NCBI RefSeq assembly: GCF_020164585.1 | Contig: NZ_JAIQZF010000005.1 | Span: 186,001-250,000 of the forward strand | Direction: 5' to 3' | From: Psychroflexus curvus | Lineage (GTDB): Bacteria > Bacteroidota > Bacteroidia > Flavobacteriales > Flavobacteriaceae | DNA length: 64,000 nt | Shown here: positions 4,574 to 9,760 of the stretch, piece by piece | Layout: each line of letters begins with the position of its first letter | Position numbering within the stretch: position 1 is the first letter of the stretch | Notes under the pieces: generated by a model | What the model was told of the DNA's origin: nothing | Databases searched by the model: none | Seen by the model: the letters and a program-made list of their open reading frames with translations, nothing else | Program-made: the position numbers and the translations under genes

Positions 4574-6064
4574 ATGAGTAATTTTAAAGAAAACAACGAT
4601 TTATCCAGACGTAAATTCTTAAGGAATATAAGTTTGGCAACTGCAGGAATCTCTATTGTCCCAAGTCATGTCATTTCAGGTTTAGGCTATACAGCTCCTA
4701 GCGATAAGCTCAATATTGCCGGTATTGGCGTAGGGGGCATGGGCCGTAGTAACCTAAGAAATATGAGTTCTCAGAACATTGTTGCACTGGCTGATGTAGA
4801 TTGGTCTTATGCTAAAAGATGTTTTGATGATTATCCAAAAGCCAAAAAATATAAGGATTACAGAATAATGCTGGAGGAAATGGATAAAGAGATAGATGCG
4901 GTCATGATCAGCACACCTGACCACACGCATTACGTAAGCGCCAAAGATTCTATGTCTGCAGGCAAGCATATTTACTTACAAAAACCGCTTACACACTCTG
5001 TATATGAGTCAAGAAAACTAGCTGAACTATCAGAATCTACTGGAGTTGCCACTCAAATGGGTAACCAGGGAAATTCTTCTGACGATATGCGCAAAGTATG
5101 CGAATGGATTTGGAATGGTGAGATAGGAGAAGTAACTAAGGTGGATGCCTGGACAGACAGACCGATTTGGCCTCAGGGTTTAGAAAGACCTACTGAAAAA
5201 CATGCAGTACCAGAAACCCTTGATTGGGATTTATTTTTAGGACCCGCTGCAGAAAGGCCTTACCATCCTGCATATACACCCTGGAATTGGAGAGCTTGGT
5301 GGGATTTTGGAACAGGTGCTTTAGGAGATATGGCTTGTCATATTATGGATCCTGTATATAAAGCTTTAGAACTAGGATTTCCTTACGCATTTGAAGCTTC
5401 CTCTACCCAAGTAAACACGGAAAGTGCACCTGTGGCAGAGAAAGTCACTTACTATTTTGGTGAAAGACCTAAAAAAGGCAAGATAAATATGCCTGGTGTA
5501 GAATTTACCTGGTATGATGGTGGATTAAAGCCAGACAGGCCTGAAGGCTTGAAGCCTGGCATGTATCCTGGCGATCAACAAGGCTGGGGCGGTGCTATTT
5601 TTTATGGCACTAAAGGAACCTTAATTTGCGGAACTTATGCTATGAACCCCTTTATTATAGGACGTGAAGATAACCCGCCTCCTACAACTGGTGAATTGCG
5701 CAGAATCCCAAATGCTATGGATGGCGGACATGAAATGGATTGGGTGCGTGCAGCAAAAGAAGATAAAAACAAAAGAGTAGAAGCTAGTTCTAATTTTGCT
5801 TATGCTGGACCATTAAACGAAGTAGTTGTAGCAGGTAACCTTGCTGTGAGGTTACAGGATTTACGCAGAAAGTTAGAATGGGACGCCAAAAACATGAAAA
5901 TCACTAATATTGGAGAAAACGAAGAAATAAGAGTGGTAAGTACCGATAGCTTCAAAGTGATAGATGGAGATCCAAAATTCGATACGCAGTATAAAACCAT
6001 CAATGCCAAAAACGCAGCTGAAGAATATGTGAAGCGAAGCTACAGAAAAGGCTGGTCTTACTAA
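4574..6064 (+). CDS. Gfo/Idh/MocA family oxidoreductase with twin-arginine signal
   Basis: 496 residues. The N-terminus SRRKFLRNISLATAGISIV (11-29) is a Tat-type signal, so the folded, cofactor-loaded enzyme is probably exported to the periplasm. The NAD-binding motif GIGVGGMGRS is at 50-59. At the place of the usual EKP motif the protein has QKPLTHS (136-142): the lysine is kept and Glu is replaced by Gln. The central region is rich in aromatic residues (WNWRAWWDFGTGALGDMACH), as in exported members of this family in Bacteroidota. The following DUF1080 lipoprotein is on the same strand 77 nt downstream, probably in one operon. Sugar oxidation is inferred; the substrate is unknown. Confidence 0.87.
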   Translation: MSNFKENNDLSRRKFLRNISLATAGISIVPSHVISGLGYTAPSDKLNIAGIGVGGMGRSNLRNMSSQNIVALADVDWSYAKRCFDDYPKAKKYKDYRIMLEEMDKEIDAVMISTPDHTHYVSAKDSMSAGKHIYLQKPLTHSVYESRKLAELSESTGVATQMGNQGNSSDDMRKVCEWIWNGEIGEVTKVDAWTDRPIWPQGLERPTEKHAVPETLDWDLFLGPAAERPYHPAYTPWNWRAWWDFGTGALGDMACHIMDPVYKALELGFPYAFEASSTQVNTESAPVAEKVTYYFGERPKKGKINMPGVEFTWYDGGLKPDRPEGLKPGMYPGDQQGWGGAIFYGTKGTLICGTYAMNPFIIGREDNPPPTTGELRRIPNAMDGGHEMDWVRAAKEDKNKRVEASSNFAYAGPLNEVVVAGNLAVRLQDLRRKLEWDAKNMKITNIGENEEIRVVSTDSFKVIDGDPKFDTQYKTINAKNAAEEYVKRSYRKGWSY

Positions 6065-6141
6065 TATGAGATATGCTGGACTTTTGGTAATTAGTTTCAA
6101 CAAATAACATAAGTCAAAAAATTATAATTTAAACAAAACAA

Positions 6142-6963
6142 ATGAAGATGAAAAAAACAATTTTAGCACTCACAACCTTTGCATTTATTGCTTTTTCTTG
6201 TGGAGATACTAACAAAAAGGAAAACAAGAACGCAGAAGCTGAAGAGTCAATTGAAAAAACGAATGAGGCTGATGTAACCGAAGCAAGTGAACTTAATACC
6301 TTATCTAAAGAAGAAAAAGAGGAAGGCTGGAAACTTCTTTTCGATGGTGAAACCAGTGAGAACTGGAGAGGTTACAACACCGATGTGTTTCCTAGTGATT
6401 GGAAGGTAAAAGAAGCTACTCTTTTTATGGCTGGTTCTGGAAGAGGTGAAGCAGGTTCAGAAAACGGCGGAGATATATTATACGATGAAGTATTCGACAA
6501 TTTCCACTTAAAATTAGAATGGAAAATATCAACAGGAGGTAATTCAGGAATTTTTTACTTAGGTCAAGAGTCAGACGACTATGATTTTATATGGAAAACA
6601 GCTCCAGAGATGCAGGTACTTGACAATGAAAAGCACCCTGATGCCATGTTAGGTACAGATGGGAATAGAAAAGCGGGATCCTTATATGACATCTATCCGG
6701 CTGAACCACAAAATGCAAAACCAGCTGGGGAATGGAATTCAGTTGAGATTATAGTTTATAATGGCACAGTAGTTCATAAACAAAATGGAGAAACCGTTGT
6801 AGAATACCATTTATGGACCCCACAATGGAAAGAAGATGTGGCTAATAGTAAATTTCCGGAATTAAATGAAAACTGGGCTGATGTTGCTAAAGAAGGATAT
6901 ATCGGTTTACAGGATCATGGTGACGATGTCTGGTTCAGAAATATAAAAATCAAGCAATTATAA
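6142..6963 (+). CDS. DUF1080 (3-keto-disaccharide hydrolase-type) lipoprotein
   Basis: 273 residues. The lipobox ends at Cys20 (AFIAFSC), followed by a Glu/Lys/Asn-rich linker. The globular domain starts near residue 68 with EEGWKLLFDGETSENWRGY, the hallmark of the DUF1080 concanavalin-like fold. It continues with GGNSGIFYLGQE, PEMQVLDNEKHPDA and GEWNSVEIIVYNGTVVHKQN. Members of this family act on 3-keto-glycosides or 3-keto-disaccharides at the cell surface or in the periplasm. Adjacency to an exported Gfo/Idh/MocA oxidoreductase, which could make such 3-keto sugars, supports this. The upstream ATG at 6142 (MKMKK) is used; the second Met is an equally good start. A strong terminator follows. 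Confidence 0.88.
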   Translation: MKMKKTILALTTFAFIAFSCGDTNKKENKNAEAEESIEKTNEADVTEASELNTLSKEEKEEGWKLLFDGETSENWRGYNTDVFPSDWKVKEATLFMAGSGRGEAGSENGGDILYDEVFDNFHLKLEWKISTGGNSGIFYLGQESDDYDFIWKTAPEMQVLDNEKHPDAMLGTDGNRKAGSLYDIYPAEPQNAKPAGEWNSVEIIVYNGTVVHKQNGETVVEYHLWTPQWKEDVANSKFPELNENWADVAKEGYIGLQDHGDDVWFRNIKIKQL

Positions 6964-6982
6964 ATTAATGAGTATTAATTTT

Positions 6983-7016
6983 AAAAAAGGTCTTTTCAAT
7001 TCGAAAGACCTTTTTT
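6983..7016 (+). terminator. Rho-independent terminator after the DUF1080 gene
   Basis: A 13-bp perfect stem (6983-6995 with 7004-7016, AAAAAAGGTCTTT) ends in six T residues. It lies 20 nt after the stop codon. Confidence 0.9.
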
Positions 7017-7107
7017 AATGTTCAAAAATTAGACTACCAGGATTCTTCCTTTTGAAAAAAGTTAATTTCATCTTTATTCCAGTAAAAACAGGTTTAACAC
7101 TTGTTGA

Positions 7108-7138
7108 TTTGATTGTTTTAAGATTTTATCTAATTTCG
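7108..7138 (+). promoter_or_regulatory. Promoter of the phenylalanine hydroxylase leader
   Basis: TTTG at 7108-7111, a 19-nt spacer, then TAATTTCG at 7131-7138, one base off the TAnnTTTG consensus. Transcription would begin around 7143-7146, exactly where the Tyr-rich leader peptide begins, implying a leaderless or nearly leaderless leader ORF. Confidence 0.6.
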
Positions 7139-7142
7139 CCTT

Positions 7143-7202
7143 GTGATTAATACAAACATATATTATTACTATTATCCTCTTCTAAATTTTAGAATCGGCT
7201 AA
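7143..7202 (+). CDS. Tyr-codon leader peptide of the phenylalanine hydroxylase gene
   Basis: A 19-codon ORF starting at GTG (7143) and ending with TAA (7200-7202); predicted peptide MINTNIYYYYYPLLNFRIG. Five consecutive tyrosine codons (TAT TAT TAC TAT TAT, 7161-7175) stand out. The gene downstream makes tyrosine from phenylalanine, so the repeated residue matches the pathway product. There is no Shine-Dalgarno sequence, but the promoter places the 5' end at or next to the start codon. The last codons (AGA ATC GGC) overlap the segment that can pair with the terminator 5' arm. The initiation codon is the weakest point: GTG fits frame and position but is not proven. Confidence 0.65.
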   Translation: MINTNIYYYYYPLLNFRIG

Positions 7203-7267
7203 TGGTATAATTTATTTTATAACTTTTATCTCATCCCGATTCAAAACTGAATCGGGATTTTTATTTT
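7180..7267 (+). promoter_or_regulatory. Transcription attenuator (anti-terminator/terminator) in front of the phenylalanine hydroxylase gene
   Basis: The terminator has arms ATCCCGATTCA (7233-7243) and TGAATCGGGAT (7248-7258), an AAAC loop and the tail TTTTTATTTT (7258-7267), ending 13 nt before the hydroxylase ATG. GAATCGG at 7192-7198, inside the end of the leader ORF, repeats the core of the 3' arm and can pair with CCGATTC (7236-7242) as a competing anti-terminator. A small hairpin, TTCTAA (7180-7185) with TTAGAA (7189-7194), can hold part of that segment. A ribosome stalled on the Tyr codons would open the small hairpin and leave 7192-7198 free (read-through). A ribosome reaching the stop codon would mask it (termination). 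Confidence 0.7.
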
Positions 7268-7280
7268 AAAAACAATTCTG

Positions 7281-8006
7281 ATGCAAGACATGTCTAAGTA
7301 CACAAAAGAAGATCTATGGGTTTGGAAAACATTGTTTACCAGACAGCAGAGTAACATTCCTGGCAAAGCTTCTCGAGCGTATATTCAGGCTCTGGAGCAT
7401 ATGTCACCGGTTTTGAATGCTGATGAGATTCCAGATTTCAAAAAAATTAATGCATGGTTTCAAACCAAAACCCAGTGGGAATTACAAGTGGTCCCCGGGC
7501 TTATACCAGTGCAGGATTTCTTTCAACTCCTGGCTGAACGCAAGTTTAGTTCCTCAACCTGGTTACGCTCCAAGGACAGCCTGGACTATCTAGAAGAGCC
7601 TGATATGTTTCATGATATTTACGGCCATGTCCCCTTGCTCAGTAATCCTGTTTTTTCTGAATTTGTTCACGAATTTGGAAAACTGGGCTGCCAATTCCTT
7701 GATGATTCAGAAAAGCTTCTTCAATTGCAGCGTTTATATTGGTTTACTATTGAGTTTGGTGTAATTAAGGAACAAGGTAAAGTTCAATCTTATGGCGCTG
7801 GGATTTTATCATCTTATGGAGAAACCAATCAGATCCATGAACAAAAGGCAAATTTTTTAGATTACTCTATAGAAGCTATAGTTCAAAAAGTCTTTAGGAC
7901 TGATATTATGCAAGAGGATTACTATGTCATTTCCTCTTTTGAAGTGCTTTTTGAATCTTTAAAAGAGCTATCTGAAGTTTGGAATGAACGCCTTACAGAG
8001 GTTTAA
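7281..8006 (+). CDS. phhA: Phenylalanine 4-monooxygenase (pterin-dependent aromatic amino acid hydroxylase)
   Basis: Converts L-phenylalanine to L-tyrosine with O2 and a tetrahydropterin in the cytoplasm. At 241 residues it is the short bacterial form with only the catalytic domain. The ferrous iron ligands are visible: His111 and His116 in PDMFHDIYGHVPLL, and Glu158 in WFTIEFG. The ATG at 7281 is used; MSKYTKED at residue 4 is a possible alternative. It is monocistronic, between a leader with an attenuator and an unrelated serine hydrolase. The leader suggests expression rises when charged tRNA-Tyr is scarce, which points to tyrosine supply rather than phenylalanine breakdown as the regulated role. 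Confidence 0.95.
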   Translation: MQDMSKYTKEDLWVWKTLFTRQQSNIPGKASRAYIQALEHMSPVLNADEIPDFKKINAWFQTKTQWELQVVPGLIPVQDFFQLLAERKFSSSTWLRSKDSLDYLEEPDMFHDIYGHVPLLSNPVFSEFVHEFGKLGCQFLDDSEKLLQLQRLYWFTIEFGVIKEQGKVQSYGAGILSSYGETNQIHEQKANFLDYSIEAIVQKVFRTDIMQEDYYVISSFEVLFESLKELSEVWNERLTEV

Positions 8007-8193
8007 ATTTATATCACTCCAATTTAAACTGAAACGAAATTTCATTTTTTTCTTAAATTTAGTTAAGTTAAGTGATTTTAATGATATTGAACCCTTATTA
8101 AGTTGTAAAGCCTGGTCTAATTATTTAGTTAAAATTGATGAACAATCTATTTAATTAAAATTAATTTCAAATCTTTGAACTTTAAAGTATGAG

Positions 8194-9426
8194 ATGAAAT
8201 TTAACTCAAAATTTTTTTTAAGGCTGGCTTTGTTTATCACTCTGGCTGTACTCATATCCTACACTATGTTTCAAAATTTTGCTTTTAGCAATTTTGAAAC
8301 CCGCTCCGTAGAGATTCCGGCAGTTATCGAGCAGCAGCCTAAACCTTCAGTTCCAGACTATGACTCCTTATTTTCTGAAGAGTTAGACCTTTTGCAGGAA
8401 CAAATTCAGAAGAAAGCCAAACGCTACAGGATAAATGGATCTGTACTGGTTGCCTACAAAGACCAAATCCTGTATAAGGAAGATTTTGGATATAAAAACC
8501 CGATTACAAAAGCCCCGATGCAACCTGGCTTATCTTATCAATTAGCCTCTGTCAGCAAGCAATTTACAGCAGCTGCAATCTTAAAATTACATGAAAACAA
8601 AGTCATAGATATTGACCATCCTGTGGTTAGTTATTTACCGAATTTCAAGTTTGAAGACGTAACCGTAAGAGATTTATTGAAGCACAGATCCGGGCTTTGG
8701 AATTATATGTATCTCACAGAACAATACTGGGGTGAAAATATCGCACCCAATAATCTTGAAGTGGTTGACTTGATTAATTCGCATGCTCCGAGGCTTAATT
8801 TTCCTTCTGGAAGATATTTCAGTTACAGCAACACAGGATATGTCGTTTTGGGTGCTATTGTGGAGCAAATGAGTCAACGTCCTTTAGGTGATTATTTGAG
8901 AGAGGAGTTTTTACAACCACTCTGCCTCGATGAAACTTTTGTAGAAAAAACTGAACTAAATAAAACCAGCATCCTAAATGGTTACCAGCCCTACAGGCAT
9001 TCTTTGATAAATCTCCCTGCTGGTTTTCATAACAATGCCCTTGGAGACAAAGGCGTATATGCTTCTACACACGATTTATTTGTGTGGTTTCGAGATCTAA
9101 AGAATGGAAAAATACTGTCTAAAAAAAGTGTCGACTTAATGTTTGGACGTGACGAGGGTGGAAAAAATGAACGTTACGGAATGGGGTTTAGGATTGATAA
9201 AGACGGAAGCGAACCAGTCATCTATCATAATGGACTTTGGGATGGTTTTAGAAATGGCATAGAATATCATCCTAAGCAGGATCTTGTTGTTATAGTGATG
9301 ACTCATACACAAAACAAGCGTAAACGTTACTTCCAAAATCATATCGTAAGGTTATCCAAAACGCTCATTTCCTCAGCAAAAAAGCGTCTTGAACTCGAAA
9401 AACAAGAACCTGAGTTGATTTTATAA
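8194..9426 (+). CDS. Serine hydrolase of the beta-lactamase/class C family, membrane anchored
   Basis: 410 residues with one N-terminal membrane segment (about 8-26) and no clear cleavage site, so probably anchored with the catalytic domain in the periplasm. The SxxK motif is S119-V-S-K122, the YxN motif is Y211-S-N213, and the third active-site element is HNGLWDGFRNG near 343. These define the AmpC/DD-peptidase/esterase fold. Function could be D-Ala-D-Ala carboxypeptidase, esterase or peptidase; the sequence alone does not decide. About 20 residues at the C-terminus are charged (KKRLELEKQEPEL). The gene stands alone, with a repeat-rich spacer after it. Confidence 0.88.
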   Translation: MKFNSKFFLRLALFITLAVLISYTMFQNFAFSNFETRSVEIPAVIEQQPKPSVPDYDSLFSEELDLLQEQIQKKAKRYRINGSVLVAYKDQILYKEDFGYKNPITKAPMQPGLSYQLASVSKQFTAAAILKLHENKVIDIDHPVVSYLPNFKFEDVTVRDLLKHRSGLWNYMYLTEQYWGENIAPNNLEVVDLINSHAPRLNFPSGRYFSYSNTGYVVLGAIVEQMSQRPLGDYLREEFLQPLCLDETFVEKTELNKTSILNGYQPYRHSLINLPAGFHNNALGDKGVYASTHDLFVWFRDLKNGKILSKKSVDLMFGRDEGGKNERYGMGFRIDKDGSEPVIYHNGLWDGFRNGIEYHPKQDLVVIVMTHTQNKRKRYFQNHIVRLSKTLISSAKKRLELEKQEPELIL

Positions 9427-9439
9427 TTGCTTGCCTTTG

Positions 9440-9760
9440 GGCTCTTTTTTAGTTGCTGGTGTTTTGTTGTTCGTTATTCGTGGAATGCTATTAAAAGGTT
9501 TTAGATTTCAAGTCATTGCTCATGTCTTCTGATTCTTTTCTCTTTGTTCTATTTGCTATGTTCTCTTTACCTACTACTGACTTCTGAATATCAAATTTAC
9601 TTGGGTCTTGAATCTTGGTTCTTTTTTAGTTGCTGGTGTTTTGTTGTTCGTTTTTAGTAGGCTTTAAGTCATGGCTTCTGATTCTTGCCTCTGTTTGCTC
9701 TATGCTCTTTACTCTTTTTTACTATTTGCTACTGACTACTGACTACTAACTACTGAACTT
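9440..9760. repeat. Two diverged copies of an intergenic repeat
   Basis: A 33-bp stretch at 9443-9475 recurs exactly at 9620-9652. Each copy is followed by a similar T/C-rich tract containing GTCTTCTGATTCTT or GGCTTCTGATTCTT and then short CTACTGACT-type iterations (9738-9757 in the second copy). The unit is about 170 bp, has no coding potential, and sits between convergent genes. It looks like a non-coding flavobacterial intergenic repeat, not an insertion sequence. Confidence 0.65.

Follow-up and report, generated by a model that had tools for sequence, protein, structure and literature searches.

The phenylalanine 4-monooxygenase gene phhA of Psychroflexus curvus is very probably under the control of a transcription attenuator in which a translating ribosome senses charged tRNA-Tyr, as the layout of its upstream region indicates. 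Ribosome-mediated attenuation is a textbook mechanism, and its parts are found here in order. A promoter with the consensus elements, the correct spacing and a predicted start lies upstream of a short leader ORF; the ORF contains clustered codons for the regulated amino acid (YYYYY); an intrinsic terminator is located between the leader stop and the gene, an arrangement found in 51 distinct loci; an antiterminator segment is complementary to the 5' arm of the terminator; and the sensor codons can fold with the antiterminator strand into a protector hairpin. Positions refer to the window, i.e. the whole 64-kb stretch of DNA that was analysed, and all features lie on the + strand. The first-pass annotation had offered the attenuation interpretation for this locus, and our results support it, since conservation of the Tyr run, of the terminator and of the antiterminator pairing holds in Psychroflexus and extends well outside the genus. 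A direct reading of the sequence confirmed the positions it had assigned to the leader ORF, the Tyr codons, the GAATCGG segment, a small hairpin and the phhA start codon. Our analysis adds to it a protector hairpin, a wide distribution and sister leaders (Trp, Phe/Tyr, His and tyrA).

The regulated gene (7281..8006) starts with ATG at 7281 and encodes a short-form hydroxylase of 241 aa, which matches the domain profile PF00351 with an E value of 2.6e-45 and the NCBIfam phenylalanine 4-monooxygenase model NF008877 with 247 bits at a cut-off of 247. No other gene of the P. curvus genome matches PF00351, and the nearest relatives, from P. montanilacus, P. longus and P. lacisalsi, share 85-87% protein identity. 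Since the enzyme converts Phe into Tyr, the proposed switch would represent end-product control of an anabolic enzyme. The genome also encodes tyrA, and therefore has two routes of Tyr supply. No tRNA genes were found in the 64-kb window. Most of the Flavobacteriaceae sampled in an order-level survey (L091-L111) have a long hydroxylase of ~590 aa without a leader, on which the Biopterin_H domain match is split in two pieces, and the short form is the exception within this sample.

The leader ORF (7143..7202, GTG 7143 to TAA 7202) has 19 codons and encodes the peptide MINTNIYYYYYPLLNFRIG, in which five consecutive Tyr codons, TAT TAT TAC TAT TAT (7161..7175), constitute the sensor. We gathered 80 phhA relatives, most of which are preceded by a short ORF that contains a Tyr run; enough upstream sequence was available for 77 regions, P. 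curvus included. Short ORFs with at least three Tyr within six codons are present in 50 of the 77 upstream regions versus 4.2 expected from dinucleotide shuffles, and those with at least four Tyr within six codons in 29 of 77 versus 0.3 expected. The comparison with other phhA upstream regions that the first-pass annotation had suggested thus reveals conserved Tyr runs. Within the 3.0-Mb P. curvus genome, which we examined for leaders by pattern, family and covariance-model searches, four successive TAY codons occur 14 times versus 37 times for the reversed control, and of the 14 sites, the phhA copy alone lies within a short ORF that precedes an intrinsic terminator and, beyond it, a gene. 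Tyr codons arise readily from A and T, and the region is rich in both, so the Tyr run could in principle be a by-product of base composition next to a constitutive terminator or an sRNA. The excess of Tyr runs over the shuffled expectation argues against this explanation, as does the lack of a Tyr leader at any of the 20 long-form (~590 aa) hydroxylase loci with sufficient upstream sequence; separate elements also pair in a locus-specific manner, and the comparative data contradict the explanation to the point where we give it almost no credence.

The composition of the leaders points to the amino acid that is sensed. Across 51 leaders, Tyr accounts for 23% of the residues and Phe for 3%, and two adjacent Phe residues (FF) are absent from all of them, showing that the conserved feature of the leader peptides is the Tyr codons and not Phe codons. 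Both Tyr codons are used (TAT 163, TAC 33), and the gaps inside the Tyr run of the aligned loci are multiples of 3 nt, i.e. whole codons, which together point to selection on translation. An alternative is that the device senses Phe, the substrate of the enzyme, or serves catabolism; phhA enzymes of other bacteria can serve Phe catabolism, and the P. curvus leader does include one Phe codon. This alternative is very unlikely given the scarcity of Phe in the leaders, and stalling at low Tyr would raise the enzyme level under Tyr shortage, as suits an anabolic role; the presence of tyrA as a second supply route also speaks against the alternative. The product Tyr is thus probably the cellular signal that controls phhA, and such control argues that the short phhA of these bacteria makes tyrosine.

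Tyr runs are conserved and lie in the middle of the peptide, and the same hardware could in principle serve a nascent-peptide arrest that senses free tyrosine, similar to TnaC. The residues around the run are not conserved, however (PLLNFRIG, HLIFKKN, TDPNWN and FHLGESEM in different leaders), and the run varies in length from 3 to 6 and is interrupted by Cys, His or Ala. Furthermore, the Trp, Phe/Tyr and His runs of the sister leaders described below match the products of their pathways, as starvation sensing predicts. We therefore consider peptide arrest highly improbable compared with sensing of charged tRNA-Tyr.

The promoter consists of a -33 element TTTG (7108..7111) and a -7 element TAATTTCG (7131..7138) separated by a 19-nt spacer, which is likewise found in L002, L003, L004, L005 and L008. 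Promoters were scored as TTTG/TAnnTTTG, with the -7 consensus taken from the part of a study of F. psychrophilum drawn on here (PMC9723704); a generic sigma-70 scan was dropped, as it does not model Bacteroidota promoters. The -7 box matches 5 of the 6 consensus positions in P. curvus and 6 of 6 in most relatives. In that study, the Flavobacterium -7 box spans -12 to -5, which places +1 at 7143, where the GTG begins, in agreement with the well-spaced promoter and the start site at the ORF start that had been noted earlier. In P. montanilacus, P. lacisalsi, P. tropicus, P. longus and several Crocinitomicaceae, the predicted +1 likewise coincides with the start of the leader ORF, and in most of the remaining loci it falls within ~6 nt of the start codon. 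The leader ORF is therefore predicted to be leaderless or nearly so. Leaderless mRNAs make up just 5.5% in the group studied, according to that part of the F. psychrophilum work (PMC9723704). The lack of an upstream ribosome-binding region and the GTG start count against the attenuation reading in that they bear on how efficiently the leader would be translated; most Psychroflexus relatives have ATG at the same place, and the GTG variant is shared by P. curvus and L189. A conserved block, TTTAACACTTGTTGATTTG (7093..7111), extends upstream of the -33 box and includes it, and is nearly invariant across the Psychroflexus phhA promoters of L002, L003, L004, L005, L008 and L216. Within it, the core TTAACANTTGTTGA forms an imperfect inverted repeat that has no other exact match in the P. 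curvus genome, and the block may be an extended promoter or operator.

Three pairings compete in the leader RNA: the terminator, the antiterminator and the protector hairpin. The terminator hairpin (7233..7258) has the sequence ATCCCGATTCA-AAAC-TGAATCGGGAT, with 11 bp closed by an AAAC loop, and is followed by a U-rich tail, TTTTATTTT (7259..7267), whose T run is invariant or nearly so in the alignment. It is the strongest terminator-like site within 5000-9500, and its stem covaries at 8 of 10 pairs over 39 sequences, so that the 11-bp terminator proposed just before phhA holds up both in P. curvus and among its relatives. The antiterminator segment GAATCGG (7192..7198) is complementary to CCGATTC (7236-7242) in the terminator 5' arm. 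In the 51 loci, the antiterminator binds its own terminator 5' arm with a mean of -9.6 kcal/mol versus -8.0 kcal/mol with the arms of other loci, and the matched value is reached in none of 20,000 permutations, with the same result in a 38-locus non-redundant set; the proposed pairing of GAATCGG with the 5' arm is hence locus-specific. The locus-by-locus shuffle test is moderate (p<0.05 in 24 of 51), and the weight is placed on the combined and permutation tests and not on single-locus shuffles.

In the protector, or 1:2, hairpin (7158..7215), the Tyr codons fold back onto the region of the stop codon and the sequence downstream of it, which sequesters the antiterminator. The small hairpin at 7180-7194 of the first-pass annotation is present, but it turns out to be merely the tip of this longer hairpin, whose 5' side is the Tyr run. 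The fold of 7143-7232, which contains the protector, has an energy of -13.4 kcal/mol and a z value of -3.0. Protector stems from matched loci reach -9.8 kcal/mol versus -6.8 kcal/mol from mismatched loci, a difference equalled in none of 20,000 permutations, and the locus-specificity persists when the comparison is restricted to the 15 nt preceding the Tyr run. An RNAalifold consensus from a MAFFT alignment makes the terminator alone visible because that alignment does not match the leader stems by structure; matched versus permuted duplex energies were used to assess the protector and the antiterminator. The terminator, the antiterminator and the protector together are a full classical attenuator.

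The spacing of these elements agrees with a switch set by the ribosome. In 40 of 51 loci, the antiterminator begins 13-17 nt 3' of the Tyr run; given the usual size of a ribosome footprint, a ribosome halted at the final Tyr codon would reach to about this distance and leave the antiterminator free. In folds modelled with a ribosome occupying the final Tyr codon and the terminator still lacking its 3' arm, the minimum-energy structure has the 5' arm paired to the antiterminator region in 47 of 51 loci. At equilibrium, the finished terminator (-15.8) outcompetes the antiterminator (about -10.6), and the switch must therefore be kinetic; textbook attenuators likewise decide kinetically. Three loci, L015, L018 and L072, have their leader stop 45-48 nt downstream of the Tyr run and far beyond the antiterminator, and a ribosome at the stop therefore cannot mask the antiterminator in the same way.

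In the mechanism that we propose, transcription would begin at or beside the leader start codon and produce a leaderless leader mRNA. With plentiful Tyr-tRNA, the ribosome would reach the stop codon and cover 7192-7198, so that transcription ends at the terminator formed by 7233-7258. Without translation of the leader, the protector (7158-7215) would hide 7192-7198, and the terminator would again form. With scarce Tyr-tRNA, the ribosome would stall on 7161-7175 and open the protector hairpin, and the freed 7192-7198 would pair with 7236-7242 before the terminator 3' arm is made, allowing phhA to be transcribed. Use of this start site, stalling of the ribosome and the response to Tyr are what we infer from the elements described above.

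A 5' region that is structured, covaries and includes a terminator would also be expected of a metabolite-binding RNA, i.e. a riboswitch or a T-box, with a fortuitous ORF. No T-box or riboswitch family of Rfam matches the phhA leader, and no Rfam family matches 7050-7300 at the gathering threshold, with none of note when the threshold is relaxed; Bacteroid-trp (RF01692) stays below its gathering threshold there. What is conserved is in-frame Tyr codons of both kinds with 3-nt indels, and no aptamer-like conserved core is seen beyond the codons and stems. An RNA that binds its ligand directly is accordingly a highly improbable explanation of this region. As a separate observation, Rfam matches to MicF and rli62 are far below threshold and meaningless as to the identity of the leader.

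We next consider the distribution of the leader. Among the 36 rows of the phhA protein-tree clade that includes P. curvus, the leader is present in 31, occurs in relaxed form in 2 and is absent from 1; the upstream sequence of the remaining 2 is too short to judge. The leader label clusters on the tree, with none of 500 shuffles as low, and the whole tree requires 13 changes. A Tyr run and hairpin in close relatives were what the first-pass annotation had staked its reading on, and the leader is indeed present in 16 of the 17 Psychroflexus genomes with short phhA, 15 of them with a strong covariance-model match and the sixteenth (L216) with FYYY and a terminator. The lone exception, L223, is a fragmented genome that is 79% complete. 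None of the Psychroflexus genomes without short phhA that the covariance model searched has a strong leader match. These data indicate that the phhA attenuator is widespread in an under-studied phylum.

Most known leaders of this type sense Trp, Phe, His or branched-chain amino acids, and the phhA element adds a Tyr-specific attenuator on a hydroxylase. It resembles E. coli pheL-pheA and trpL-trpE in its runs of codons for the regulated amino acid, the competition of antiterminator and terminator, and the protector hairpin; the E. coli leaders differ in that they use Phe or Trp and not Tyr, belong to Proteobacteria and carry a normal 5' UTR. Leader-peptide attenuators have been reviewed (PMC11802643), among them the AroR leader of Corynebacterium glutamicum (Phe-Tyr-Phe), which likewise has Tyr among its sensed codons and an aromatic pathway gene under its control, but responds to Phe and not to Tyr, the availability of Tyr being reported to have no effect on transcription (PMC11802643). 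The trpL attenuator RNA of Sinorhizobium meliloti, which starts at the ATG of the leader ORF (PMC7298713), is a precedent for a leaderless leader ORF; it differs in sensing Trp and in belonging to an alphaproteobacterium, and the leaderless start in P. curvus is a predicted one. Within Bacteroidota, attenuation was foreshadowed by the Bacteroid-trp RNA motif (Rfam RF01692; Weinberg 2010, PMC2864571), which occurs in the same phylum and in the P. curvus genome itself and shares the leader, the terminator and a predicted start at ATG; it differs in its Trp codons and its trp operon, and the phhA leader does not match RF01692. For F. psychrophilum, of the same family, the part of PMC9723704 drawn on here describes clues to leader-peptide attenuation together with conserved pheA and hisG 5' elements, for which the same mechanism is proposed and to which the hisG leaders and the P. 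curvus pheA leader below are comparable; phhA and a Tyr-only leader are unmentioned in that part. In the open-access papers searched, no account of a Tyr-only leader or of phhA attenuation was found, and neither these papers nor Rfam describe a Tyr-specific leader for phhA, in line with the first-pass annotation, which knew of none in Bacteroidota.

The P. curvus genome contains sister leaders. RF01692 matches before trpE with 59.5 bits (cut-off 49), and there the leader MFNNKNNSWWWSLLRQTS (WWW) is followed by a terminator (L188:1520-1664; G000:C23), with the predicted +1 at the ATG. Another leader, MTTHIYFYFNFYFADPAKRG (YFYFNFYF), is followed by a terminator ~10 nt before pheA (L187:2112-2256; G000:C33), the first gene of the operon pheA-aat-tyrA-aroG, in which aat encodes an aminotransferase and aroG a DAHP synthase/chorismate mutase. 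Its alternating Tyr and Phe codons make it a likely dual Phe/Tyr attenuator. The genome thus offers a testable set of leaders, Trp, Phe plus Tyr, and Tyr, that differ in their sensor codons. The covariance model finds further leaders: model R1 identified a Tyr leader, MNLSFSTYYYFYYPVITSRNCSSMF (YYYFYY), with a terminator directly before tyrA in another Bacteroidota family, outside Psychroflexus (L204:1500-1720, after reverse complement), and it also matched His-rich leaders in L205, L206 and L208 before genes that we take from their translations to be hisG. The codons in each of these leaders are consistent with the end product of the pathway. We tentatively suggest, at slightly less than an even chance, that Bacteroidota use one modular leaderless attenuator in which the codon run is swapped (WWW for trp, His for hisG, YFYF for pheA-tyrA and YYYY for phhA or tyrA), that the phhA version is the first shown to be Tyr-only, and that the short phhA is biosynthetic.

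Several phhA loci depart from the common pattern. In L159, L160 and L175, within 200 bases upstream of phhA, the terminator and the complementary segment are kept, but the upstream ORF shows a conserved KCF or none and has no Tyr run; these may be decayed or differently triggered versions. L163, L166, L167 and L170 have dispersed Tyr and His codons (e.g. YHSYSHYH and TYVHHSYHF) with a terminator upstream of phhA. The phhA and leader regions of two records, L045 (titled Glaciecola amylolytica) and L024 (titled Actinomyces viscosus), nest among Fluviicola/Flavobacteriales, and both records are probably mislabelled or contaminated.
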